Below the pieces are notes generated by a model. The model saw only the letters and a program-made list of their open reading frames with translations, did no database searches and was not told the DNA's origin. From assembly GCA_903813345.2 (NCBI GenBank), contig CAIIXF020000011.1:35810166-35874165 (forward strand): a stretch of DNA of 64,000 nucleotides, in the 5' to 3' direction. A program made the translations under genes and the position numbers. This document shows positions 25,201 through 49,200 of this stretch, piece by piece (within the stretch, counting starts at the first letter, position 1; every line of letters begins with the position of its first letter). Origin of the DNA: Owenia fusiformis (Eukaryota > Annelida > Polychaeta > Sabellida > Oweniidae).

Positions 25201-28200
25201 AAAGGCAAATTCCGTCGGCGCTCTGCAAACACGGAATCCTGGAGGCAGTGGTTAACGAAAAGTTTTTTATGGTCTTTTGTATTTCAGTTTCTAGAATGGC
25301 ATTAGATCATCATGTGCTTATGTGTTATCATTTATCAACATGAATTGCAGTGATTCATTCTAACCTGACTGTTCAGAGAGAAAGTGCGCATGGCACATTA
25401 TGAATTCTATTGTCATTTTATGCCCCTTCTGCAGATTCTAAAAGAACCTAATGTATTTTATTTCTTTTGAAGGATATCCACATGACTGCCCCAACATTCC
25501 ACCAGCATTCATTCAGGTGTTCTGTGGCAACCCCGACAACCCACGCGAGTGTATCTTAGATTCATGGCTCTGCGATGGAGGAGCTGATTGTGAGAATGGA
25601 GCTGATGAATCTGATGCTACGTGTGCTGCAGGTCAGTAGAAAAAGCATTTATGACTACAGTTGAAAACATGATTGCAAAAAGCAACTCAATTTCCAAGTT
25701 GCCGAATAAGTAACTCATTTCTCCAAGTTCATTTCCAAGCATGGAAAGTGATTACCATTGGCAGTCAGGTAGCTGAGAATTTTGAATCCTGTGATAGGAA
25801 AGATGTAAAAAAATTTACATTATGGGCAAAATGAATCTGATGAAAATATGTTTAAAAATTATTGAAGATATCCAAGTTTACTTAGCTTAGTGACAGTATA
25901 TTTATTGATTTCATATGCAAATATTGTACTAATAACTTATTTATTGATTTCATATGCAAATTAAATTTTGTACAAAGGTCTTAACATTGCAATTTACTTA
26001 TTTAATAAGATTTTAAAAGTTGATTGAAAAATACATTGACAAGCTGTTTGCCAAGTCATTGATTACAATTCAGATTTGATTTAATTTGAATATGTTTGTA
26101 TTTACTTTAAACTTGAAATACATGTTTGTGAGACTGTGGCTTGCTCTCTTGATGAGAATGGTAATGGTCCAACTGGTTTTATAATTTACTAATAAACAGA
26201 ATTTTGTTTTACATTCCTAGGAAATGCATGTGATTCATCGCCATGCCTCAATGCTGGGACGTGCAATAACATCCCTCCTGTAGAGGGCACCTCAGTTGGT
26301 TATTTCATCTGTCAATGCCGCCCTGGCTTTTCTGGGGTGAGGTGTGAGGTAGAGGGTGAGGTTACGACAGGTTCTGGGGAAGAGGTAACATCTCATTTCA
26401 ATAGTACCACCACCCTCATGTCAACATTAAAATCTAGTACCACAACTGAGAAAACTAGTACCACAACAGTTAAGCCAAGCACCACAACAGTAAAACCAAG
26501 CACCACAACAGTTAGGATAAGTTCTGCAACAGAGAAGACTAGTACCACAACAGATAAGCCAAGTACCACAACAAAGAAGAATAGTACCACAACAGTTAAG
26601 CCAAGTACCACAACAAAGAAGGATAGTACCACAACAGTGAAGCCAAGTACCATGACAGAGAAGTCTAGTACCCCAACAGTAAAATCAAGCACCACAACAG
26701 TAAAACAAAGTACCACAGCAGTAAAACCAAGCACCACAACAGTTAGAATAAGTACCGCAATAGAGAAGTCTAGTACCCCAACATCAAAACCAAGCACCAC
26801 AACAATACAGCCAAACCCCACAACAGTAAAACTAAGTACCACAATAGAAAAGTCTAGTACAACAACATCAAAACCAAGTGGATCTACTCAGAAAGTAACT
26901 TCAAAACCTGATGTTGTAGTAAGAATGCAATTTTCTTTTTAAGCTTCTCATTTTTATAAAGTTTTGGATATTCTTAGTGGGATTTGTTGTTTAACATTGT
27001 GGGCACAAGAAATCACCCATTGTGGGTGCAAGGAATCGCCCACTTTTCCTTCTGTTTTTTCATCCTGTTGGGCCATCCTTTTAATTTATGCCATTGGTCC
27101 TATTTCTTACTTTTGTTTTGGAGAAATTACTAATTTATCGATTTTATATCATTTAGAATGCAAAGTTGAGTTTTGTAAAATACTTAAAAGTATTATTATA
27201 AACCCAATAAAAAGATTGATTGTTTGTACATTTTTTGCAGACATTAGCCCCAGTAACATCCCTACCCCCTGTAGATGCATCAGTGTGCAGCCCTGACCCA
27301 TGCAGTAATGGTGTGTGTACCCCTCTCAGAGATGGCTTCCATTGTAACTGCAGGCCAGGTAAGATTACTTTGATCCTAAAGCACTGATATTAGCACTGAA
27401 TTGTCATAACTCCAGTTTCAAAATCAGAATGTGAGAAAAAACATTTTATGGTTTTTAATGGATCATGGGTTTTCTTTAATAGAGAATTTATTTGGTTCTA
27501 AGGTGTGTTTTATTATTTAGGGAGCAGTCATAACTGTCACACATTTTAGCTTTTGTTTTTAATTAGCTAGGTTATTTCTGAAAAAAGAAGAATACTAGTA
27601 CTTCAGACCAATACAATAGTAATCACTATTGTATTGGTCTGAAGTACTAGTCATGTATCACAAACACCTACATTCTACTCTTAGACTACTACCTAGCAAC
27701 CACTTTTGTTAACCTCTAATTCTGACAATCGTTACATTATAATTGACTCACCCCATAAAACACACATAAAATCAACTAATTTTTTATTAATTGTTATTAA
27801 GAAACTTGATTAGCAAATCTGATGCTGTCTTTTTTTGGAATATACAAACTAATAGTGTAATATAAGGAAAGAATTAATGCCCGCCCCTGTAGTGCAGCAT
27901 ATCAGCAATGTTGGATCCAAGGCATATGCCTTACAGCATCAAATAGAGGTTTTCAGTGTTTTATCTGTTTAATATTAATTTTATAATAATATTTTACAGG
28001 GTATGCAGGAAAGCAGTGTGACGAGGGTGTTAACGCATGTGCCTCTCAGCCTTGTAAGAACCAAGGGACATGCTCTATAGCATCAGAGGGAGGGTTCCAA
28101 TGTTTGTGTAGAGATGGGTTCACAGGGCGTCAATGCCAGGAGGAATATAACGAATGCATTAGTAATCCATGCAAGAACCAGGCCACATGTAAGGACCAAG

Positions 28201-31200: not shown

Positions 31201-34200
31201 CTAACATATTTATATTCATTTTAAATAATTCTGCAAGCTAGACACAATTCAATTCAATTCAATTCAATTTATTCCTTAATAATACAATAATACATGGTAC
31301 ATATAAAAGAATTAACAGGTGACATCATTTCTGATGTTTATACCCGTACATGTAAAAGCATAATATTACAGATATTAAGAGTAAAAGTAAGGTCAAGGAA
31401 TCAAACATATCAAGGTTGTGTTTTGTCTAAGGGAAAATCGAAGAGGGAGGGGGAGGTGCATCATAGATAAAAAGCTATCAAGTTTAGTGTCCAGTACCCA
31501 GGCTTGGAGTTATATCTGTATATATTTCTATAAAGGAGATAGAGCATGAATAAGGAGGCTGCAGTACATAAATATAAAAAGAAGAAGATCATGCATACAA
31601 CGCCAGAATATGTTTCTTATATTTAGACTTAAGACATTTACTTGACCTTGATGTTTTTATTTCTGATGGGAGGCTATTCCAAATAGATGGTCCAGAAAAT
31701 GAAAGCATCTTTCTGCCAAAGGTTTCTGTTTTAAATTTAGGCAAGGCATAGTTATATTTACCTCTTGTATCATACTTATGTAGTTCATTATGTCTTGTAA
31801 ATAAGTTGGGAAATATATCATGTAGGTTATTTTCATTGTTTTGCCACTTAAAGAAGAATTCTGCCACATTGACTTTAAATATATCAGAAATGGTGAGAAT
31901 TCCTAATTCTTTAAATAATGGCGGAGTGTGATCTCTAAATCCACTCTGAGTAGCTAATCTTGCAAATTTCTTTTGTATTAAGTGAAGCGAATTAATTGAA
32001 GTGATATTAGCATTTCCCCAAATGATATTGCTGTAAGTTAAATAAGAATGGATTAGAGAATGATATATAGTCATAAAGGTTTTCCTATCTAGTAAATGGT
32101 TAATCTTGTACAGAATGCCAACTATCCTTGATATTTTCATTTTGACTTTACTAATATGTTCATTCCATGAAAGATGTTGGTCAATAACCAAACCAAGAAA
32201 ATTAGTGTGTGTTACTCGTTCAATAATTTTACCATCAATAAATATCTCTAAGTTCCTGGTATTTACCTTTTTCTGCTTTGAAGTAAATAATATGTACTTA
32301 GTTTTATTAATATTGAGTGACAGTTTATTGGCTATATGCCAATCTCTGATACTATTTAATTCAGTATTCATTTCATTAAGGTTTTCCCACTGATTAAAAT
32401 ATTTGTATCATCAGCAAACAGAACAAAGAGAAGTGCTGGAGAGGTCAAGTAGATATCATTGATATAGAGTATAAAAAATAAGGGCCCTAAGACAGATCCC
32501 TGTGGAACACCACATTTGATAGTTTTGAAAGATGAAATTTTATCATTATATTTAGTACACTGGTTGCAATTTGTTAAATAACTAGAGACCCACCTTAGAG
32601 CAGGTCCCCTAAAACCGTAAAATTCCAATTTCTGTAACAGTATGCTATGATCAATGGTATCAAATGCTTTTGAAAAATCTAGAAAAAGCCCAATGCTGAA
32701 TTCATTGCTGTCAACAGATTTCTTAATTTTTTCTACAAATTGTAAAATTGCCATGTAAGTAGATCTTTTCTCTCTAAATCCAAACTGATTCAAATACAAA
32801 ATTCCAAATCTAATAATAAAATTACTCATCCTTACATACATAAGTTTCTCAAGGATCTTTGAAAAGACAGGTAGAACTGATATAGGACGATAATTGGTAA
32901 ATAGATTAAGTTCATCTTTTTTATGAATAGGGGTAACTATAGCAGTTTTTAGTTTATCTGGGAAAACACCCTGTAAGAGTGAGCTATTGAATATGTGTAG
33001 GAGAGGTTTTAGAAAATTTTTGCTGCATTGTTTAATAATATTAGGTTTTAAGTCATCTGCCCCAGCAGCTGAATCTTTTAGATTCAATTTTTGGTTCAAA
33101 TTTTAATTCACCTGCAATGCCGGACAGCCCTACAAGCTATTTCAAAACATTTATTGTCATTAAACGTAGACATGTATGTGCCATACATGAAACATCTACA
33201 AAATAGCAAACTATTCTTTAACATACTACTTTAAGATGACAAAAACAAATGTCACGTGAGTTGTATTCTGCCTTAGCTTGCAGAATTGTCTCAAGTGAAT
33301 AAAAATATTTTAGACTCGCGCACCCATCCTTCGTAAAATTCGATTTACTCGCGCACACGTCATTTTGCGAGACACAAAAGTGCGAATTTCTCTTTAACCG
33401 GGACACGCTTGGATGAGATATTTGGTGAATTAGATCGTCTTCAGACATTGATGGTACGGGACAAGTTTCACAGAGATACAAAATCTTAAAACATGTAAAA
33501 AGTGTGATTACAAACCTCAAGCGAAAGAAAATGCGAATCACTCGCGCACACGTCATCCATGAAGTCACGTGACAGACTATACCCAGGGTGTTTACACCAT
33601 TGGTTTATATTCCTCCCTCCATTTTACATTTTATAAGTGTTCATTTCATGATATTATTTCAGGTCAGTGTTTAGATGGATCTAATAGTTTCACATGTGAA
33701 TGCAATGAGGGATTCACAGGCCTTACATGTCAGACTGAAATTGACCCTTGTGAACCTAACCCATGTGAAAACTCAGGCTTTTGCTGTCGGAAGGGAAAGG
33801 CTTATTGTGGTAGTCATTTAGCAATAGGATCAGTACAGTGCTATTGTGAGGAAGGTTTGTGTACTTTAACTTGAAGTTCTCCGATAATAAGGTGTCATTG
33901 AAGAGAAATGTAAAAGTACATGATTGATGTAATTTGTCTATTTATCATTGTTCCCTTACAAATTACAATTGGCTAAACTAGAAAAACATTTGCTTACAAA
34001 CATCACTAACTTAAAGAGAAGCAACTTATAATTATACATTTAGAGGACAGAGAAATGGGAAGCTGATTTGAAATTCATCACATATTTTGAAAAGTATTGC
34101 TCTTGCGGCAAATCAGTTTTAGGGGATAGCTCATTTTTCTGCACATTTGGTATAACAGGTGACTCCAAGCTATGAGATTATTATATACTTCTGTTACTTC

Positions 34201-37200
34201 CAGGTTTTACAGGGGCCCTTTGTCAGTACAGGACAAATGTTTGTTCATCTAGCCCCTGTATGAATGGGGGTCTCTGTAGCCAAGTAGGGGAGAGCTATGT
34301 TTGTACCTGCCCACTCACTTTCTCAGGTATGAATAACAAAAAATATTTGATTTTTTTATGAACTTAGGAACAACCTGCAATAAAAAATACTCAAAATAGT
34401 CCAATTATGGAATATAAAAATATGAAAATTAATGTAATGAAATGAAATATAAACTTATTGATTAACCTCTTGAATCCCAGGCTCTAAAATTGATTGAAAC
34501 CAGAAAATTTTTCATTTTTTGTCACCTTTTGACATTTTACTACATACCTTTACAACTTTAGATGCTCAACTTAGTAAAATTAGATGGCAGAGATCATTTC
34601 TACATGTTTTAAAACAATTTTTGTGTAAATTGGATGAAAATTGTTCAAATAAGAGCAATTTTTGTGAACAATTTTGTCCCTCTGGGTTTCAAGGTCATTT
34701 CTGAGGTGACGAGAAATCTCATCATTCTGGGTAGTCAAGAGGTTAATATTAGTATTAGTATTTTGCTGTCATACTTCCCTTCTCATATTTCATCCTTCCC
34801 CATTCCCTGATTTATATATTGATATATTCGGAGAGTGTAATCTCACCTACCTGTATTTACCTGTTAATTGATTACAGGTATGCACTGTGAGGCTGAGGCT
34901 GCATGTAATAGCTCACCTTGTATTAATGGGGGCTCATGTGTAGAAGACACCCCTGGAGTCACCACATGCCTCTGTACTGACGAATACATGGGGCAATACT
35001 GTGAACATCGCAAACCATGCTCCATGTTACCATGCTTGAACCAGGGTGAATGTACCGATCTGAATGAGGTCTCCTACTATTGTACATGTCCATTCGATTA
35101 CACAGGATCACATTGCGAGACTTTCCTACCATGTGCCTCAGAGCCTTGTTTAAATGGAGCTTATTGTTCAGAACAGGCTGAAAACTTTCTTTGTGTGTGT
35201 CGCGAGCATTATACTGGTATTCACTGCGAGACTGCACTCCCTTGTGTCTCCTCACCGTGTTTGAATGGAGCTACATGTGAAAACTCAGACTCTGGATTTG
35301 TATGTTCATGCAAAGCAAATTATGGTGGGAGTCGATGTGAACAATATCTTGCATGCTACAGTGGTCCATGTCTTAACTCAGGAACATGTCAAAACACGGG
35401 AACAACATTTCAGTGTGAATGCCCCATTCAGTATACAGGATCACAATGTGAGACCTACCAGGCTTGTTACAGCAGTCCTTGTCAGAATGAAGGAGTATGT
35501 GTCAACACAGGGGATACATTTAGGTGCGAGTGCACTGAAGGATATCTGGGTGACACGTGTGATGTGGCATCACCATGTCAAAGTCAGCCTTGCAAGAATA
35601 GTGCTATATGTAAAAATGAGGGGGATTCCTTCACTTGTACCTGTCAAATACCATACATAGGAGAGACTTGTGACCAGGTAAGATGTATGACTCAAAAACG
35701 TTTTCAATTTGATTTTATTCCATTCAGATTCTCTTAGCCAATAAATAAGAATTTTATATTTAAAAAAACACTACGAAGGTAACTTTTGCATGGATGAGTC
35801 AATTTCAAAAATTAAACACAACTTCTGTTTAGAAACCCTCATAGAAATATATTAGATTATTGAACAGTCATATAACATTATTTTCAGATCAATTGGTGTA
35901 TTAGTACCCCATGTCTGAATGGTGCTTCGTGTGATTTATCAGCAGATAGCTATCAGTGTAACTGCCTAGCTGGATATACAGGGAATACATGTGATGACAA
36001 GGTAGACTCTTGTACAGGTGAGGCCCTCTAGCTTAATGTTTGTGTGTTTATGTGGAACAAGTATTGTACTTGTGCAGTTGCCGGACCATTGGGATTTCTG
36101 CCTGGTAATATGAATCATGAAAAGTTCAAAATGGAGATGATTTGATAAAATATGTTTGGTTTGCTACTCTGTCGAGTAATGCTATGTTATTAGTTTTAAG
36201 TGTAAATGATAATTCACTTATGTTTGGCATATGATCCAAAGCCCCAAGCCCAAGTCAGTTAGCTTCGACCATGGTCAACTTACTTGTGCAGCATGTAATT
36301 CTCTAATACTGTCTTATTGTTAACATGTTTAGGTGATGGTTGCTATTTTGGGACAACCATCGAACCAACTGGATGTCTATCTAAGCCCTGTTTACATGAT
36401 GGGGTCTACTATGAAGACAGCCTTGGAGTATTCTGTGAATGTAATATTATGTCACCACCAAAAGTGGTGACATATTGTTATGGTCTCCGTTTTTTTTGCG
36501 ATGGCGGTTGGTGGTTGGCGTCCGGCGGTTGGTGGTTGGCGTCCGGCGGTTGGTGTCCGGCATCTGTAACAATTTCTTACAACTTCCTATAACTTAACAA
36601 ATACTGTTTAGACTGACTTCAATTTTTTTCTAAATCATCTACATGTTCTCAGAAGTTCAAATCTGACTTTAGATTTGACATTTGACCTTCAATGACCTTC
36701 TCAAGGCCAAAAAGGTCTTTTTTCAACTTGCTTCACATTGACTAAATTTTTTTCAAAATCATCTACATGTTCTCAGAAATTCAAATCTGACTTTCGATTT
36801 GACTTTAGATTTGACATTTGACCTTCAAATCTGACTTTAGATTTGACATTTGACCTTCAATGACCTTCTCAAGGTCAAAAAGGTCTGTTTTCAACTTGCT
36901 TCAAATTGACTAAATTTTTTTTTCAAAATTATCTACGTGTTCTCAGAAATTCAAATCTGACTTAAGATTTGACATTTGACCTTCAATGACCTTCTCAAGG
37001 TCAAAAAAGGTCAAAAAGGTCTGTTTTCAACTTGCTTCAAATTGACTAAAAAAAATTTTCAAAATCATCTATGTGTTCTCAGAAATTCAAATCTGACTTT
37101 AGATTTGACTTAAGATTTGACATTTGACCTTCAATGACCTTGTCAAAGTCAAAAAAGGTCAAAAAGGTCTTTTTTCAACTTGCTTCAAATTGACTAAATT

Positions 37201-40200
37201 TTTTTTTCAAAATCATCTACATGTTCTCAGAAATTCAAATCTGACTTTCGATTTGACATTTGACCTTCTCAAGGTCAAAAGAGGTCAAAAAGGTCTTTTT
37301 TCAACTTGCTTCAAATTGACTAAATTTTTTTTCAAAATCATCTACATGTTCTCAGAAATACAAATCTGACTTAAGATTTGACATTTGACTTTCAATGACC
37401 TTCTCAATGTCAAAAAAGGTCAAAAAGGTATTTTTTCATCTTGCTTCAAATTGACTAAATTTTTTTTCAAAATCATCTACATGTTCTCAGAAATTCAAAT
37501 CTGACTTTAGATTTGACTTAAGATTTGACATTTGACCTTCAATGACCCCATCAAAGTCTAAAAAGGTCAAAAAGGTCTTTTTTCAACTTGCTTCAAATTG
37601 ACTAAAATTTTTTTTCAAAATTATCTACATGTTCTCAGAAATTCAAATCTGACTTTAGATTTGACATTTGACCTTCAATGACCTTCTCAATGTCAAAAAA
37701 GGTCAAAAAGGTATTTTTTCATCTTGCTTCAAATTGACTAAATTTTTTTTCTAAATCATCTACATGTTCTCAGAAATTCAAATATGACTTTAGATTTGAC
37801 ATTTGACCTTCAATGACCTTCTCAAGGTCAAAAAAGGTCAAAAAGGTCTTTTTTCAACTTGCTTCAAATTGACTAATTTTTTTTTTCAAAATCATCTACA
37901 TGTTCTCAGAAATTCAAATCTGACTTTCGATTTGACATTTGACCTTTAATGACCTTCTCAAGGTCAAAAAAGGTCAAAAAGGTCTGTTTTCAACTTGCTT
38001 CAAATTGACTAAAAAAAAATTTCAAAATCATCTACGTGTTCTCAGAAATTCAAATCTGACTTTAGATTTGACCTAAGATTTGACATTTGACCTTCAATGA
38101 CCTTCTCAAAGTCAAAAAAGGTCAAAAAGGTCTTTTTTCAACTTGCTTCAAATTGACTAAATTTTTTTTCAAAATCATCTACATGTTCTCAGAAATACAA
38201 ATCTGACTTTAGATTTGACATTTGACTTTCAATGACCTTCTCAATGTCAAAAAAGGTCAAAAAGGTATTTTTTCATCTTGCTTCAAATTGACTAAATTTT
38301 TTTTCAAAATCATCTACATGTTCTCAGAAATTCAAATATGACTTTAGATTTGACTTTAGATTTGACATTTGACCTTCAATGACCTTCTCAAGGTCGAAAA
38401 AGGTCAAAAAGGTATTTTTTTAACTTGCTTCAAATTGACTAATTTTTTTTTCAAAATCATCTACATGTTCTCAGAAATTCAAATCTGACTTTAGATTTGA
38501 CATTTGACCTTTAATGACCTTCTCAAGGTCAAAAAAGGTCAAAAAGGTCTGTTTTCAACTTGCTTCAAATTGACCAAATTTTTTTTCAAAATCATCTACA
38601 TCTTTTCAGAAGTTCAAATTTGACTTTACAAGTTCTCAGAAATTCAAATCTGACTTAAGTTTGAACTCATAATATTGTGAGCAACTAGGTGGTGACATTT
38701 TGTCATGTTAATGCCTTGTTTTATTATTAACATGTTTAGGTGATGGTTGCAATCCTGGGACAACCATAGAGCCAACTGGATGTCTCTCTAAGCCCTGTTT
38801 ACATGATGGGGTCTACTATGAAGACAGCCTTGGAGTATTCTGTGAATGTAATACTGTCTTATTATTAACTTGTTTAGGTGATGGTTGCAATCCTGGGACA
38901 ACCATAGAACCAACTGGATGTCTCTCTAAGCCCTGTTTACATGATGGGGTCTGCTACGAAGACAGCCTTGGAGTATTTTTTGTGAATGTAATACTGTCTT
39001 ATTATTAACTTGTTTAGGTGATCCCTTATAAAAAATTCAACCTTGAAAGTCCGAATTTAAACCATTGCACAATCATTGCACAATCATTGATCCAATCATT
39101 TATGCAACAATGCCAACGGTTACAATGCAACCATTAAAAACTATGGCAATATTGTCTCAATACAACACAAAATAATTATATTGGTCTTTAAAATATATTT
39201 TAAAATGTATGTATTTCATGCATACGTGTCAGAATTTAAATGGTTTGATCAAAAAGATATTTAAAGTATTGAAATAGTTAAGTAAACTTGTCTTGTGAAT
39301 GAAAATATATTGAACCAATTTCCATCTAACCTTGAAGGATGGTGATTGTCTCACTCGCATGTATATTATCTAGATAGCAGCAATGCTAAGGCATAGCAAA
39401 TCCCCTTGCTGCCATGACTATCATTTTTACAAAATCCCTCCGCTACTTTTTAAGTTATTGCAAAAACATTTGAAATAATCTTGATTCGGTCAAGTCTTGA
39501 ATTTTACAAATTCAGACACTTATACTTCACCTTGTAATCATCACAATTATAAAGGAAGTAAAATGTGTCTGGAAGGAAGAAATCCTTCAATTTGAAAATA
39601 ATCTGATTATTGATTTGATATTTTTATTTGAAAATGCAATCAGACATTACAGGATGTGTTTCAAATAATTAAGTTGATAAGCATAACTTTAAAAACTCTG
39701 ATTACAGTAAGACTCGGTCTCTCTAGTTTGATTAGAGTCTGCTTTGAAGGATGTGTCTAAAGAAACTTTATTAATCCATTAATCCATAAACAAAACAAAA
39801 ATAATTTGGCAAGGCAAAAACAAACCTTATTACAGAGAAACTCTCAGTTTGATTAGAGTTTTGAAAAATAAGCCCCGTTTTTTTATTTTTCAATTGACAC
39901 ATATTATTTAAACTGAAAACGCCTTTCAGTACAAATGCCCTGCCCTAGTGAATACAGTAAAACCATGGACTTTCAATCTATTGAATCCCTATGGTGAAAC
40001 TAAATAAATAAAAATGAAATACAAAAATTCTGAAAATATTATTTTCAGTTTCATATACTTGCTATTTGAGATTTCTTAGCACTTATTGAAGCAATTGAAT
40101 AAATAAATAAACCCTCAATGAACTATGAACCCTATTTCTGGTCAAGCATTTTAATTAGCCGTTCAACCGTTTTAATTAGCTGTTCAACCGTTTTAATTAG

Positions 40201-43200
40201 CTGTTCAGCCTTTTTAATTGGCTGTTCAAGCATTTTGATTTGCCTAAACCCATGAGAATATTAATATGTAGTAGGTATTGTTGTGTTGAGCATTATTATA
40301 AATTTGCCAAGAAAGAACATGGTAATTAAATCTGTTATGAATAATGTGTTTCACACATAAATATACAGTCAATATCAAAATAGTTCTCGTGTTTGTATTT
40401 TTTAAATTTAAGTGAGTCATACTCTTGATGTAAGTCTGTAAGTTGTTAACTACACATATATGGATACATTTGAAAAAACATTCTCACTAAATAATTGGAG
40501 TTCTTTTCATAATTAACATTAAAGATGCATCATTTTGGCCATATCAGATAAAGGGAAACAAACAAACTTATCAGTCTTACAGACTGGGCATTATGTCTCA
40601 TAGCTACTATATAGAAAGCACATTACTATAAAAATGTTAATTCTGTATACAAAGTTTTTAAATCTGTATGTTAAGTGATATGGATTCTCCATTATTTTTT
40701 GAAAGGCATTTTATTCTATAATAGATTTTTTAATAGAAATATGAGACATTTTTTTAAACATACCCCATTATATATTAATTATGGACAGAAATCATGTATA
40801 AGTCATTGCGCATGATAAGATCACGTGATTCAGTTTAATCGGGCGCTTCCAAATTGGTTATAGCAGGGGGAAGAAGGAGGTACAGATTCTGGATACTTGC
40901 TTAGGAGGATGGCTGATGAACATGCCAATATTGTGTTGAATTTTGCCAATAGTTAACTGAATACTGCCAATAGCTTAATGAATACCGTCAATAGTTAAAC
41001 GAATACTGGCAATAGTTTAATGAATACTGGAAAAAGTTATTGAATACTGCCAATATTATAATGAATACTAACAATTACAGGGTGGTCCAAAAAAATTGGA
41101 ACATTTGTTAATTGAACACAAAACATTTATTTTTCCTCTAAAATGCACCAAAATTTCACTGAGCATAGATCAGTCACTTATCTCTCTGATGAAAAGTTTA
41201 TAGGTGCAAATCACAAAGTTAATGCATTAAACTAGTCAATGTTTGATATGACCCTCTTTTCTTAAATATACACTTGTCAATTTCGCAGGTACTTTTTCAA
41301 GTATTCTTTATTTCAAAGCTTTAATGAACATGTTGATTGCTATACACATTTTATAAAATCATATTTAGTTGACATGAGGTATTAACATCTATGGTTTATT
41401 GGGAAACTATTGTGTTATTGTCAACTTAAGAATACCCTAAATTATTAGACTCCAGATTGAAAATCTGGAGTCTATTGTTTTTGCCAGTATTCTTATTCTT
41501 ATTAGACTCCAGATGTCAATCTGGAGTCTATTGTTTTTGCCAGTATTCTTCTTATTATTATTATTTTTCTTTAAGAGTTTTTTCAATAACTATAAGGTAT
41601 CCAGTAAAGATCATAATACAGTATATTTAGGTTCAGTATCTAGTTGGTGGGAAATTGGGTCAAATTTTTATCTAGGTCAAAGGTCAAGAACTAGGTCAAA
41701 TCCAGTACTTTGTCACTTTTTTCGATTTTCTCAGTCGTCCTTCAATATTTTCGATCCGGTTTTTTTTTCATTGTGTTCCTCATAAAAAAGTAGTATGAAG
41801 AAACACGATTTAGATTTTTGATATCTCGAACCGATTTCGAGATATCAGTGTCCGAAGACGAGGTCCGAAAAAAAATTCTCCGAATCAAATGTCCAGGATA
41901 TTAGTCTTATAGAAAATTTTCTCAGGATTCCGAATCTGAAAACCAAATTTAGATTGGACTTCCGGTTCAGAAGTTATGGCGTTTTGAAAGCTCAAAAATC
42001 GCTAAATTTGGTGCCCATGTTAATTCAATGGGAAAAAATATTTTTTTGAAGTGAAAAATACGAAATATAGACTGAGTTCAGCTTAATATAATGATAGCTT
42101 TTAAAAAAATGGGACCTCAAAAGCCATCTAGCTTCAAAATTTGGACCCCAAAATGCCTAGGTCAAAATCTAGGTCAAATTCGAGGTTTTTCCTTATTTTT
42201 GCGATTCTGACACTACAGATTAATTATATTCTTCGAAATTTTGTATACATGTAGACAAGAGTGTGCTTATAGTGTTAGCCTTTTGCCGTCAGGAAGTATT
42301 TTGCCCCACTTTTGAGATATGGTGTCCAAAAAGTAGGTTAAAATAAAAAATTCTCCAAATTTAACGTTTGAGTTATGAAGTAAGTATAGAATTTTCTCAG
42401 GAATCCGAATCTACAAACCAAATTTCGATCCCACTTCCGGTTCAGAAGTTATGGCGTGTCCAAAAAGTAGGTCAAAATAAAAATTCGCCAAATTTAATGT
42501 ATGAGTTATGAATTAGGGGTAGAATTTTGTCAGGAATCCGAATGTTTAAATCAAATTTAGATCCGACTTCCGGTTCGGAAGTTATGGCGTTTTGAAATTT
42601 CGGAAAATCGATCTGATGGTATCCTGATAGAAAGTCAAGAGTAGAGAAAAAAATATTGAAAAATTCATCCATCCTTCCTATCTGATCCTATCCTATCCTA
42701 TCCTTCCTTCGTATCCTTTCCTTCCTATCCTTCCTATCCTCTCCTATCATATCCTTTCTTCCTATTCTGTTCTATCCTATCCTTCTTTCTTATTCTATCC
42801 TATCGTTCCTTCCCATTCTATCCTATCCTACCTTCCTGTTTTATCCATCCATCTTATTCTGGATGACTCAGCTTATTCTGGATGACTCGGCTTATTTTAG
42901 ATGACTGGGCTTAAAAAAGTCTGGATCTGGAGTCTGAAATTGAACTTCGTTCAATTTCCCAAGTCTAGTTATTATTCTTCTTCGGGAGTTTTTTCAGTAA
43001 CTATGGGGTATCCAGTAAAGACCATAATACAGTTTATTTAGGTTCAGTATCTAGTTGGTGGGAAATTGGGTCAAATTTTTATCTAGGTCAAAGGTCAAGA
43101 ACTAGGTCAAATCCAGTACTTTGTCACTTTTTTCGATTTTCTCAGTCGTCCTTCAATATTTTTGATCCGTTTTTCTTTCATTGTGTTCCTGATAAAAAAG

Positions 43201-46200
43201 TAGTATTATAAATGTCGATTTAGTTTTTTGATATCTCAAACCGATTTCGAGATATCGGTGTCCGAAAACGAGGTCCAAAAAAAATTTCTCCGAATCAAAT
43301 GTCCAGGATATTAGTTTTATAGGAAATTTTCTCAGGATTCCGAATCTGAAAACGAAATTTAGATCAGATTTCCGGTTCTGAAGTTATGGCGTTTTGAAAG
43401 CTCAAAAATCGCTAAATTTTGAGCCCATGTTAAGTCAATGGGAAAAAAGATTTTTTTGAAGTGAAAAATACGAAATATAGACTAAGTTCAGCTAAATATA
43501 ATGAAAGCTTTTAAAAGAATGAGACCTCAAAAGCCATCTAGCTTTAAAATTAGGACACCAAAATGCCTAGGTCAAAATCTAGGTCAAATTCAAAGTTTTT
43601 TCTTATTTTTGCGATTCTGACACTACACTTTAATTATATTCTTCGAAATTGTGTATACATGTAGCCAAGAGTGTGCTAATAGCGTTAGCCTTTTGCCGTC
43701 AGAAAGTATTTTGACCCACTTTTGAGATATGGTGTCCGAGAAGTAGGTCAAAATAAAAAGTTCTCCAAATATAACATTTGAGTTATGAATTAAGAATAGA
43801 ATTTTCTCAGAAATCCGAATCTGCAAACCAAAATTCGATCCGACTTCCGGTTCCGAAGTTATGGCGTGTCCAAAAAGTAGGTCAAAATAAAAATTCGCCA
43901 AATTTAATGTATGAGTTATGAATTAGGGGTAGAATTTTGTCAGGAATCCGAATGTTTAAATCAAATTTAGATCCGACTTCCAGTTCGGAAGTTATGGCGT
44001 TTTGAAATTTGGGAAAATCGATCTGATGGTGTCCTGATAGAAAGTCAAGAGTAGAGAAGAAAATATTGAAAAATTCATCCATCCTTCCTATCTGATCCTA
44101 TCCTATCCTTCCTTCGTATCCTTTCCTTCCTATCCTATCCTCTCCTATCATATCCTTTCTTCCTATTATGTTCTATCCTAACCTTCTTTCTTATTCTATC
44201 CTATCGTTCCTTCCCATTCTATCCTATCCTACCTTCCTGTTTTATCCATCTATCTTATTCTGGATGACTCCGCTTATTCTGGATGACTCGGCTTATTTTA
44301 GATGACTGGGCTTAAAAAAGTCTGGATCTGGAGTCTGAAATTGAACTTCGTTCAATTTCCCAAGTCTAGTTATTTTTATTTAAGAGTAGGAAAGAAAGAA
44401 CATGTCAGAGGTGAGCGATTGCATAACCCGTACATCTACTAAACTGACAAAATCATTGTTTCCACTTTTCAGTAGAGGGGAAACTGACTAGTTATTCACA
44501 AGGCTTTATTAAAGACCACCTCTAAGAACACATGATATATCATTTGTGTTCTGGGAAACTCCTTTATTATACTGATATACATATATTGATATATTAAATT
44601 AATATTATTCATATTAGAACAAGAAAGGGGAGGGGGTTCATTTACCAGTCAAAACAGACTGCCCTGGCCTCTTTCTGGAGAATATTTAATCAGTAATATA
44701 TCCAACAATAGCCATCAAAATATGCTTGATACACATCAATTTGGGTAAAAAAATGTTGAATATGTTCATACATTTGATTTTCCAAGACAAACATATAAGT
44801 AGTTTGTTCAAGCTGAATTTTTAATCAAGATGGCTTGGACAAAATTAAACGAACAGCAAAGTGAATGAATCATTTCAAAACTGAGTCCCAGGCTTCAACT
44901 TGTAATTCAGGAGAAAAGGGGTCATATCAAACATTCTCTAGTTTAATGCATTAACTTTGTTGTTTGGTCCTATAAACTTTACATCAGATAAATAAGTGAT
45001 TGAACAGTACTCGGTAAAATTTTGGTGCATTTTAGAGAAAAAATAGCGATTCTGAGTTCAATTATCAAATGTTCCAATTTTTTTGGACCACCATGTAGTT
45101 CATTGAATACTGGCAATAATGTTATGAATACTGGCAATAGTTTATTGAATACTGCTAATATTATAATGAATGCTTGCAATAGTATAATGAACATTGCCAG
45201 AAGTGTCACTTTTATGAACACTTTTAGAAGTTTGATGAACACTAGATATGGTAATTTTAATTGTGTAAATAATGTAATTGACAGAGAACTAAACTTTTAG
45301 TAATTTTTTACTATAATAAACATGCATGTATGTTTGCAGAAAAAATATCTTAATATACTGTTGTTGAATAGAGGTACATTCAAATCAATACTTAAAGATA
45401 ATTTTAATTCAGGTAAAATGATAAGTTCAATTATCAAATGTTCCAATTTTTTTTGGACCACCCTGTAGTTCATTGAATACTGGCAATAATGTTATGAATA
45501 CTGGCAATAGTTTATTGAATACTGCTAATATTATAATGAATGCTTGCAATAGTATAATGAACATTGCCAGAAGTGTCACTTTTATGAACACTTTTAGAAG
45601 TTTGATGAACACTAGATATGGTAATTTTAATTGTGTAAATAATGTAATTGACAGAGAACTAAACTTTTAGTAATTTTTTACTATAATAAACATGCATGTA
45701 TGTTTGCAGAAAAAATATCTTAATATACTGTTGTTGAATAGAGGTACATTCAAATCAATACTTAAAGATAATTTTAATTCAGGTAAAATGATAATTTTTT
45801 GGAACGATACTGATTCAGGATGGTTGCAGGGGTTGAACTATGCAATCATTGAACAAAACATATTGCAACCATTTACATTTCAATGCGAAATGGTTGCAGT
45901 TTACAATGGTTGCAGATTACAATGATTGTCGTTGAAAAAGAGTTGACTTCACTTGGTTGAACGCAATGGTTGCACAATGATTGCTTATCATTGTACAATG
46001 GTTTTTCCTTTGATCTTAGTAGTTGAAACAATCAGTATTCAATGATTGATGGAAATGGTTTAAATTCGGACTTTCAAGAATTTTTTATAAGGGATGGTTG
46101 CAATCCTGGGACAACCATAGAACCAACTGGATGTCTCTCTAAGCCCTGTTTACATGATGGGGTCTGCTACGAAGACAGCCTTGGAGTATTCTGTGAATGT

Positions 46201-49200
46201 AATACTGTCTTATTATTAACTTGTTTAGGTGATGGTTGCAATCCTGGGATTACCATAGAACCAACTGGATGTCTCTCTAAGCCCTGTTTACATGATGGGG
46301 TCTGCTACGAAGACAGCCTTGGAGTATTTTGTGAATGTAATATTGTCTTATTGTTAACATGTTTAGGTGATGGTTGCAATCCTAGGACAACCATTGAACC
46401 AACTGGATGTCTATCTAAGCCCTGTTTACATGATGGGGTCTGCTACGAAGACAGCCTTGGAGTATTTTGTGAGTGCAAACACCCCTGGGATGGTATCCTT
46501 TGTGAGCTTGGAGTAGAGGAAGGTATGACAATCACCACTAGTTAAGAGAATTAAGACTCATCAATTCAGAACACTGTTTAGGGTTTAAATTAAAGTACCT
46601 GTGCAAATAAATCACAATTTTTGACTAGGCCTATGTCAATTTTTTTTTTTACTTCCTTGTTTTTAGGGTAACCATTCAAATCACAAGACTAATCAAATGA
46701 TGGATATGAAATTTTCCATTGTATTGACGTTTGCACCCTATACAGAAGCTGCTATAAGAAAACAAGCGGTGTGGATATCATGTGCACATGCTGCAGACTT
46801 TAACAGTCATTTTAGAATTTGAATTTAAGGCATGTTGGGTACTCGATTATATTCACTGAAAATTATGTCCATATTTGTGTACTTCATACTTTAACGATGC
46901 ACTACACATTCATCCTTTCTCCAAAGCAAAGAATTTGAAATTGCCGCTTTAATATACCATTTACAGCCTTCATTCAGTATTCATGATTGAGATGACCTAT
47001 CGATATGAATCATTTTTGAAATTTGAAAGTCATAAAGTTACTTTAAGTTTAAAAAAAGGAAAACAGTTAACCTGTATGTGCTATCTTTTAAGAAGCGGTG
47101 TGGATATCCGTCACTTTATGGACATCCGCACCACTTGTTAAGAGGTAGCACATTTTTGATCAATGTTTAAGTCTGCACTGTATGGCGTATGCACATGATG
47201 TCCTCACCACTTGTTTTTGTAGAGCACAGTCTGCATAGGGTGTTTGGAAGTGTCATTATGAGGGTTTTCATCTATAATCCTGTTCTCAGTTTTCTAAATA
47301 GCAGAAAACTATCATTTTACCATTAGATTAAAAAAATATCCTAATGCATGCTTTTAAATGCAATAGAGATAACTGCACTGTATTGATAAAAAAATTCATC
47401 ATGTTATTGTTGTTTGCAGATGTTTGTGCTGTAAACCCTTGCATAAATGGGGAATGTTGGCCAGTTGATGGACTCCCAAAATGTGAATGCTATGCAGGAT
47501 ATACTGTAAGTACTGTAAAGATGATTACTCCATCAAATGAAGTTTATAGGGATATTAACAACACAGTCTATTCATATCATCCATACTTCTGTCTGTACAT
47601 CCATCTGCCTTGATATAACTCAGATATATTGTTGTTTTATATACAGGGTGTCCAAAAAAAAACAGGACCGTAAGAAAGTTGAATTACTCGGTCAATTTTG
47701 CATATTTTGCCTTGAAATTTAAGAATTATTTAGTTCATTTGATGAGAATTTTGTTCTGAAAGTTTGATGATAATCTGTTCATTGTGTCAAAAACTACAGT
47801 CCTTTACAAAACATGCTCAAAGTGGGCACTTCTCCTCTCTATGCACAAACGAATCTTGCGAACAAAGTTGTTAATGACCCTTACCTATACACATTAATGT
47901 GGATGGTAAATATTGGGGTAGTTATTGCCCTCTTAAGATTGTTAGGGGCCTTTCAGTATACATATTGGCTTTGAGAAATCCTCAAAGATAAAAATTTGGG
48001 GGGTTTAGATCAGGCGAATGAGCTGCCCATATGGTTTGCATTCTGCAACTGATGAGCTGACCACCAAAGCATTGCCTAAACCATTTCAGCATATCATTTG
48101 TAGTGTTGGGGTGGTATTGGCTTGTTGAAACCACTGCTTAATTATCTCCTTAGATGTCCCTTTTGGTGCTTAGTGCATCCAAAACTTGGTGAGAACTTAC
48201 TGGTCCTTGTTCATGATGATAACAAGTCCCCAGTCACCTTCGAACCAAAAGGGACTGATGATTCCATGTTTCCTCATTGCCACCCAGGGAGTGCATTGTT
48301 CAGAATGCAATGGATGCTGTAACACTTCATCAGGAGGATGTAAGCCCCAGTAGCAATTGTTCTTGGAACAAACTTGTCAATTCAGAAAGACATGTGTGTA
48401 GGAGGATCATCAACAGCTTTGTTCGCCGGATTGAATTGTGCATAGAGATGAGATTTGCACATTTGGGGCATGTTTTGTTAGGAGCTGTAGTTTTTGACTC
48501 AATCAGTAGATTATTATCAAACTTTCACAAGAAAATTCACATTGAATGAACTAAATAATTTTGAAATTTCAAGGCAAAATATGCAAAATTGACCGAGTTA
48601 TTCAACTTTCTTACGGTCCTGTTTTTTTTTGGACACCCTGTACATGTGAGTTCAAGCCAGTATTGAAAATGATTGCTGATTTTCGAAATGTTTTTTTTAT
48701 TAGTATTTCTTAAGATTTATTCTGAGTTTTCTATATTTTATAGATACAAAGGGCTTAACTTAGGCACTCTCTAAGTAATAAATCTCTAATGAATGTATTT
48801 CATTACAGGGTAACTTTTGTGAGCAATTGTTGACTGTGGCTTGTATCGATGCCCAGTGTAACGGTGGTGTATGCTCAGGTGATGGGGTCAGGTGTATCTG
48901 TCCCCCAGGTCAATTAGGGGCCCTATGTGACAACACAGACCCATGCTCAGGTACGTCAAATTTATGAAAAAATATGAAAATTTGAGTGCATACAAATCTT
49001 GTATGAGTATTGGGAATTCATTTTAATGAACAATTAAACATTGATGGGTGATTGATGAAGAGTGTTTTTGGCATTGCATTTCAAGCATTTCAAGTGTAAC
49101 TGTACTTCCTCCATTGAGCATCCTTATAATGGTCAATAGACCTTCCTTATAATGATCAATAGACCTTCCTTATAATGGTCAATAGACCTTCCTTATAAAT

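Follow-up and report, generated by a model that had tools for sequence, protein, structure and literature searches.

Six head-to-tail copies of an intron-exon boundary unit, with two in-frame acceptors before one donor, in an EGF-repeat gene

In the potato RdRp gene PGSC0003DMG402000361, an intron arose when a segment spanning an intron-exon boundary was duplicated in tandem. There was one duplication, the duplicated segment comprised the branch site, the pyrimidine tract, the AG and the start of the next exon, and the new intron, demonstrated by RNA-Seq, uses a cryptic exonic donor (PMC4974935). The same source describes the Rogers model, in which an intron is gained through duplication of an AGGT-containing segment. 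In human UBC and VCX3A, AGGT splice sites of dual specificity lie in tandem repeats; whole coding units of UBC repeat with AGGT at their boundaries, each unit is a multiple of three and so can be retained or removed with the frame unchanged, and site use was demonstrated by RT-PCR (PMC10809524). Recursive splicing acts on exons whose start resembles a donor (PMC6224609, PMC8605326).

Here we describe six head-to-tail copies of a 138-bp unit in an animal extracellular-protein gene, within a 64,000-nt window (the whole stretch of DNA analyzed) that is free of N. Each unit consists of most of one EGF exon and about 31 bp of intron end, including the acceptor. The copies hold an intron end and an exon start, as expected for tandem duplication across an intron-exon boundary, and the acceptor was copied too, as in potato RdRp (PMC4974935). 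Unlike the potato gene, the array has six units and no good internal donor save perhaps the AG|GT boundary, and any new intron in it is putative. It shares with UBC the AGGT unit boundaries and the multiple-of-three length (exceptions are A3, of 140 bp, A4, whose boundary is lost, and A1, which is cut), but each unit is part intron, insertions break the array, and dual use of its sites is a prediction from DNA. Two AGGT copies flank a possible new intron, as in the Rogers model, although AGGT here is the already existing acceptor-exon junction. The exon start GTGATG could turn into a donor after a first splice, a likeness in sequence to recursive splicing, although its donor score is weak to moderate. 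Two known routes of gene-structure change meet in this one locus: the copying of an acceptor together with its exon, and repeats bounded by AGGT that may be retained or spliced out. Among the papers listed in literature searches limited to open-licence articles, none described a comparable EGF exon array. The features are as follows.

35888..36017, plus strand: exon before the array (hand-made exon model); a complete EGF, then VDSCTG; donor CAG|GTGAGG.
36018..36332, plus strand: original upstream intron, 315 bp, ending TAATACTGTCTTATTGTTAACATGTTTAG.
36333..36446, plus strand: unit A1, with its own acceptor; Cys3 changed to Tyr; cut by TE1; in-frame stop at 36590.
36446..38722, no strand assigned: TE1, the first insertion, a high-copy repeat with approximate borders; separates copies 1 and 2.
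38740..38877, plus strand: unit A2, 138 bp; Cys3 changed to Tyr.
38878..39017, plus strand: unit A3, 140 bp; frame lost through two additional T; another acceptor copy and GTGAT come next.
39023..46093, no strand assigned: TE2, the second insertion; 16 identical inverted end bases CCCTTATAAAAAATTC; AT target duplication.
46093..46228, plus strand: unit A4, whole body; own acceptor lost to TE2.
46229..46366, plus strand: unit A5, a 46-codon in-frame extension if acceptor 46229 is used.
46229..46366, plus strand: the same unit A5 as a possible 138-nt intron (AG|GTGATG ... TTTAG).
46367..46522, plus strand: unit A6, the intact EGF exon; phase 1-1; donor AAG|GTATGA.
47420..47505, plus strand: next exon (hand-made exon model), the opening portion of an EGF, in a matching phase.

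A preliminary description of this DNA had placed unit starts at 38742, 38880, 46231 and 46369 and a further unit split by a transposon. All four starts were confirmed, and the body of the split unit lies at 46093, behind TE2. A sixth unit, absent from that description, starts at 36335 and adjoins the original 315-bp intron. The exon end at 36017 and the exon starts at 46229 and 46367 had been given correctly, and the unit is, as proposed, a truncated exon joined to an intron end and acceptor. The original intron end occurs solely before A1, while the original exon end and donor occur solely in A6. Tandem Repeats Finder scores of 554 and 697, together with unit identities of 91-96% over 103-110 bp, rule out chance as the origin of the array. 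A search of the organism's own genome with the unit gave 6 matches, all at the array locus (3 candidates scored); no copy outside the locus was listed, a result that does not prove absence. Tandem repeats are prone to mis-assembly, but the copies here are not identical and different insertions lie between them, which makes a simple assembly duplication unlikely. With one locus and no N in the window, we consider an assembly artefact extremely improbable.

Two insertions break the array, at about 36446-38722 and 39023-46093. The single transposon described earlier corresponds to TE2, which does split the array; TE1 is an additional insertion. Searches with TE1 gave genome matches of which 40 were scored among 1309 and among 1538 candidates, the array locus included. 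TE2 separates copies 3 and 4, and its insertion point lies 5 bases past a unit's acceptor. Joining the TE2 flanks minus one AT restores the unit, giving the empty site. For the left part of TE2, 40 of 235 candidates in the own genome were scored; among the 40 other matches scored, the start falls exactly on 39023 in 25 and within 39020-39023 in 36. TE2 thus has the features of a DNA transposon with terminal inverted repeats: ends and AT duplication at the array copy and a left end that is repeated elsewhere, the right end and target duplication having been read at the array copy only.

The DNA anatomy, the reading frames, the confinement of search matches to one locus, and the ends and empty site of TE2 are shown by the data; the order of events and all splicing within the array we infer as follows, and we consider the account as a whole probable: boundary duplication, growth to six units, two insertions, and splicing mainly from 36017 to 46367 with a minor isoform from 46229. 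A tandem duplication across the intron-exon boundary would have copied most of the EGF exon and the intron end, which contains branch-point-like TTAAC/CTTAT (identified by eye), pyrimidines and the AG. Unequal exchange would then presumably have expanded the array to six units arranged head to tail, given that the variants form a mosaic across copies. TE1 and TE2 would subsequently have broken the array, so that the intron, once 315 bp, came to span about 10.3 kb. In the main transcript, 36017 is most likely spliced to 46367, which would leave the protein unaltered, while acceptor 46229 probably yields a minor in-frame isoform with 46 additional residues. A1-A3 would be remnants whose use would terminate at stop codons. 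Since the array is interrupted by two mobile elements, one could use it to test whether such copies undergo translation, are removed by splicing or do harm.

Among the unit acceptors, open products come from 46229 and 46367 only. Entry at 46367 or at 46229 (plus 138 nt, in frame) is open through to the donor; entry at 36333, 38740, 38878 or 39018 runs into stop codons. These data support the proposal that a single donor is preceded by two acceptors in the same frame, spaced 138 bp apart. The unit is indeed 46 codons long, with an open intron-derived part that reads CN(T/I)VLLLTCLG. This openness is not unusual, since 8 of 12 other intron ends of the gene are open in the same register; an open frame is a chance event of about 1 in 6.

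Splice sites were scored with matrices built from the gene's own 12 acceptors and 16 donors, which depend on hand-made exon models and are hence partly circular. Mammalian-like frequencies for acceptors were set aside; they gave -2.0 to 0.0 for the unit sites and 3 to 7 for several other sites of the gene. With the gene's own matrix, unit acceptors scored 5.7-6.25, within the range of the 12 other gene acceptors (-3.84 to 11.7). Several observations on acceptors count against the favored account. Acceptor 46229 (6.04) scored slightly above 46367 (5.70), and the sequence does not mark it as clearly minor. Acceptor 36333 equals 46367 in score and lies 10 kb closer to the donor. Three AGs between 46027 and 46100 are candidate acceptors for A4; two lead to stops, but the AG at 46079, within the TE2 end, is weak (1.37) yet in frame and open through A4-A6. 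In the 10.3-kb intron, 40 AGs score at least 5.7, six of which are unit sites, so scores alone cannot single out the sites used. Between 36040 and 36500, 36333 is the only such AG. Together with the intact original intron and the stops met by entries at 36333, 38740 and 38878, this would fit a role for A1-A3 as poison exons that lower gene output, with splicing to 36333 ending at stop 36590. However, the best donor between 36333 and 36900 (36882) lies within a mobile repeat, and we regard such a role as very unlikely.

Each AG|GTGATG might instead act as acceptor or donor, with units kept or removed as 138-nt introns in the manner of polyubiquitin. UBC works in this way (PMC10809524). TTTAG|GTGATG opens each of the five units that have an acceptor; in the extra acceptor copy ahead of TE2 the sequence is TTTAG|GTGATC. 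With mammalian-like frequencies, AG|GTGATG scored 5.8 as a donor, near some presumed donors of the gene such as 52180 (4.6) and 46522 (7.1). With the gene's own matrix, however, the site scored 2.15 by itself and, with CAG in front of it, 2.9-5.7 according to which donor was left out, versus 2.5-11.8 for the gene's 16 donors; the putative dual-use site thus pairs a donor score of 2.15 with acceptor scores of 5.7-6.25. Nor is the site special to the array, since 7 of 13 exon starts in the gene have AG|GT and two of these junctions recreate better donors (8.13 and 6.13). In this reading, the exon ending at 36017, joined to any unit, would recreate CAG|GTGATG, and stepwise resplicing to the last acceptor could follow. 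We consider dual use of this kind, resplicing included, unlikely. A potato-like new intron within the unit was rejected: the best non-boundary GT, AAT|GTAATA, scored 1.96 and leaves an intron of about 30 nt, which is too short.

Because the unit has a branch region and acceptor, an AG|GT start and 46 open codons, the array could gain copies with its frame preserved. The unit would then be both a possible exon and a possible intron, and the array may once have been one translated six-unit exon until the insertions put an end to this, with A5 perhaps still translated; we hold this to be rather unlikely. Differences between units were synonymous in 8 of 14 cases, richer than chance (P 0.005-0.035, depending on transition weight), and in subsets in 6 of 11 (P 0.020-0.084) and 4 of 6 (P 0.025-0.075). 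This excess hints that some units were once translated and counts against the favored account.

The preliminary description had further proposed that transcripts using 46229 would make A5 a new EGF-like repeat with an intron-derived sixth cysteine. Its observation of two in-frame acceptors was confirmed; the new repeat was not supported, and we consider it quite improbable. Acceptor, frame and cysteine are all present, the synonymous excess would fit, and Pfam EGF stretches under E 1 go from 3 to 4 in the joined longer protein. However, A5, which lacks the C-terminal EGF part, matched Pfam PF00008 only over profile positions 1-25 of 32 with 16.5 bits, below the 21.5-bit cut-off that A6 exceeds (27.4 bits); A2 had no Pfam match in the profile search. 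The cysteines added by each extra unit number 7, which is odd; the joined stretch goes from 19 to 26. Cys3 is missing from A1 and A2, and A3 is frameshifted. The gene's other EGFs carry six cysteines and, three residues ahead of Cys6, a glycine, but the A5 loop, C5-N-I-V-L-L-L-T-C, has no glycine. The proposed spacing of 7 residues from Cys5 to the intron-encoded cysteine, versus 8 in the intact copy, is correct, but this cysteine is not clearly Cys6, because it matches the position of the previous exon's last cysteine (C-x-G before DGC). Taking the next unit's GDGC cysteine as Cys6 supplies the glycine but gives a 12-residue loop and leaves the intron cysteine over. One row of the alignment has the intron cysteine at Cys6; in the query's first unit, that place is taken by the GDGC cysteine that follows. 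An AlphaFold model (built on 9 alignment rows that all derive from the window; mean pLDDT 69.8, pTM 0.38) offers weak evidence in both directions: the two central strands of A5 appear retained, but confidence drops at residues 40-44, the intron-derived stretch. An open frame and one cysteine are insufficient for an EGF domain, and the 46 extra residues would probably not complete the fold; additional copies could make the protein longer with the frame kept, but probably not yield a proper new domain. A PDB sequence search with the seven-EGF exon returned general EGF proteins only, such as Notch and Delta.

The window is part of contig C11, in a genome of 498,259,871 bases (525 contigs). It carries a plus-strand gene whose product combines an LDL receptor class A domain with laminin G domains and many EGF domains (Pfam matches in 8 of the 9 pieces scanned). 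Exon models were made by hand from reading frame and splice-site fit. Behind the exon at 35888-36017 lies an original intron of 315 bp with the 3′ end ...TTAACATGTTTAG, followed directly by an array of six copies (A1 to A6) of part of one EGF exon. A full unit is 138 bp long and consists of GT, 105 bp of exon and a final stretch of about 31 bp that closes with an acceptor. Only A6 has the true exon end and a good donor.

Exon before the array and the six units
35888-36017, plus strand: exon before the array, ends CAG/GTGAGG
36333: A1, directly after the original intron
38740: A2
38878: A3, with a 2-bp insertion
46093: A4, own acceptor gone
46229: A5
46367: A6, continues to the true exon end, donor 46522

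A1, A2, A4 and A5 were 91-95% identical to A6 over 110 bp, A3 was 96% identical over 103 bp, and the tandem repeat scores of the array were 554 and 697. A genome-wide search gave 6 matches, all at this locus, by a method that cannot prove absence elsewhere. The copies stand in three blocks, and 13 of the 105 exon positions differ among them. Judged by these features, the array is more than chance or artefact. The preliminary description was right that the array is real, and described it well, listing A2, A3, A5, A6 and one split unit; it missed A1.

Two insertions interrupt the array. The second (TE2, 39023-46093) carries inverted ends with 16 identical bases, and joining its flanks with one AT omitted restored TTTAGGTGATGGTTGC. 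Its left end has many relatives (best 40 of 235 candidates scored); among the matches scored, 25 of 40 other left-part matches start at 39023. The first (TE1, about 36446-38722, end positions approximate) is bounded by a high-copy repeat (best 40 of 1538 and of 1309 candidates scored). Six contiguous units therefore most likely predate both insertions. Within TE2, two 370-bp tandem copies (45055-45794) match at 99% and are therefore probably younger than the exon array; an inverted pair of 187-nt arms (41073-45100; 85% complementary, 3.65 kb apart) is perhaps a nested element. TE1 contains a minisatellite of period 135 (36871-38628, 12.7 copies).

Variants are distributed as a mosaic: CTA is common to A1 and A6, with CTC in A2-A5; TAC TAT is common to A1 and A2, with TGC TAC in the remaining units; and TTC occurs in A1, A2 and A4. 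This pattern fits exchange between units. The TGC-to-TAC change in A1 and A2 costs the unit its third EGF cysteine; growth or exchange therefore probably involved a unit whose EGF pattern was incomplete. Synonymous changes made up 8 of the minimum 14 among units (P = 0.005 to 0.035 under random mutation, transition weights 1 to 8), 6 of 11 when changes private to A6 were left out (P = 0.020-0.084) and 4 of 6 within A2-A5 (P = 0.025-0.075), in tests that are small, overlapping and uncorrected, with sites sorted by hand from the table of variable positions. The excess points to coding, but exchange with the functional exon could also cause it, and the lost cysteine in A1 and A2 and the 2-bp insertion in A3 count against coding. 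Among AG-ending 33-mers of the window, 49.6% are open in the unit's register (about 16.5% after multiplying by 1/3 for length), as are the ends of 8 out of 12 other introns in the gene.

Entry from 36017 at 36333 leads to a stop at 36590, at 38740 or 38878 to a stop at 39006, and at 39018 to a stop at 39029. Entry at 46229 or 46367 leaves the frame open up to the donor, as does 46079, a weak AG within the TE2 end. Acceptor scores were 5.70 (36333, 46367), 6.25 (38740) and 6.04 (38878, 39018, 46229), using a matrix built on 12 further acceptors in this gene (left-one-out range, -3.84 to 11.7); 46229 is thus no weaker than 46367. Because the scores fall within the gene's range and 40 AGs in the intron score 5.7 or more, six of them unit sites, the unit acceptors look usable yet not outstanding. 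The one nearest to donor 36017 is 36333. It is possibly tolerated because A1-A3 have no close donor (the best in the scanned stretches are 36882 and 39206), or possibly because the junction CAG/GTGATG is respliced. As a donor, AG/GTGATG alone scored 2.15, a level reached by 17.7% of window GTs. After CAG, GTGATG scored 5.31 with all 16 gene donors in the matrix (5.8% of window GTs as high), 5.66 without 46522 and 2.92 without 36017. With mammalian-like frequencies that we assume, AG/GTGATG alone scored 5.8, above the presumed real donor 52180 (4.6). The unit boundary would be a weak to moderate donor. In the hand-made exon models, 7 of 13 acceptors are AG/GT sites at which the exon begins with GT (29344, 29702, 33663, 34204, 34878, 46367 and 51199) vs 8.4% of all window AGs (binomial 3e-5), and donors are recreated at 2 of 11 junctions tested (scores 6.1 and 8.1).

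The proposal that a unit gives a new EGF-like repeat with an intron-encoded cysteine over-read the protein side. The A5 protein scored 16.5 bits against Pfam EGF (profile positions 1-25 of 32), below the cut-off of 21.5, vs 27.4 bits (positions 1-31) for the intact exon in A6; a Pfam scan of A2 gave no match. Lengthening the joined protein raised its EGF total only from 58.3 to 60.2 bits, though its EGF stretches under E 1 rose from 3 to 4. Cysteines in the joined stretch, whose end precedes the final cysteine of the next EGF, rose from 19 to 26; with an odd 7 per extra unit, one would be without a partner if the others pair. The cysteine encoded by intron sequence (TGT TTA G) precedes GDGC and lies at the exact position of the previous exon's last cysteine (TGT ACA G). 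In the alignment, Cys6 of the first unit in the query is the GDGC cysteine and not the intron cysteine; in the row for A4+A5, which ends at this point, Cys6 is the intron cysteine. A structure model of A5+A6 (alignment of 9 rows, all from the window) keeps both central strands of A5, with confidence blocks at 86-88 for residues 61-90 (A6), 69-74 for 11-30 (A5), 66 and 52 for 31-50 and under 50 for 40-44; it is weak evidence because its pTM is 0.38.

The locus is most likely a duplication that grew and was then broken, with one predicted minor in-frame alternative acceptor. The potato gene RdRp is a described case of duplication across an intron-exon boundary (PMC4974935). For the human polyubiquitin gene UBC, tandem repeats are described whose boundary AGGT sites serve both as donor and as acceptor; the same study gives VCX3A as an analogue and finds introns of this kind 8.4-fold over-represented in human tandem repeats (PMC10809524). 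The array shares the anatomy of both, a duplication across an intron-exon boundary and AGGT-bounded tandem repeats, with site use putative.

Elsewhere in the gene, exon 34878-35677 holds seven consecutive EGF domains without introns (period about 38 residues); most of the other exons seem to hold one to three. A Thr/Ser-rich, mucin-like repeat (26422-26879) lies in the same open frame as an EGF exon, and long minus-strand frames with FADDTN inside the gene span (31589-33102) are presumably reverse-transcriptase-like sequence.
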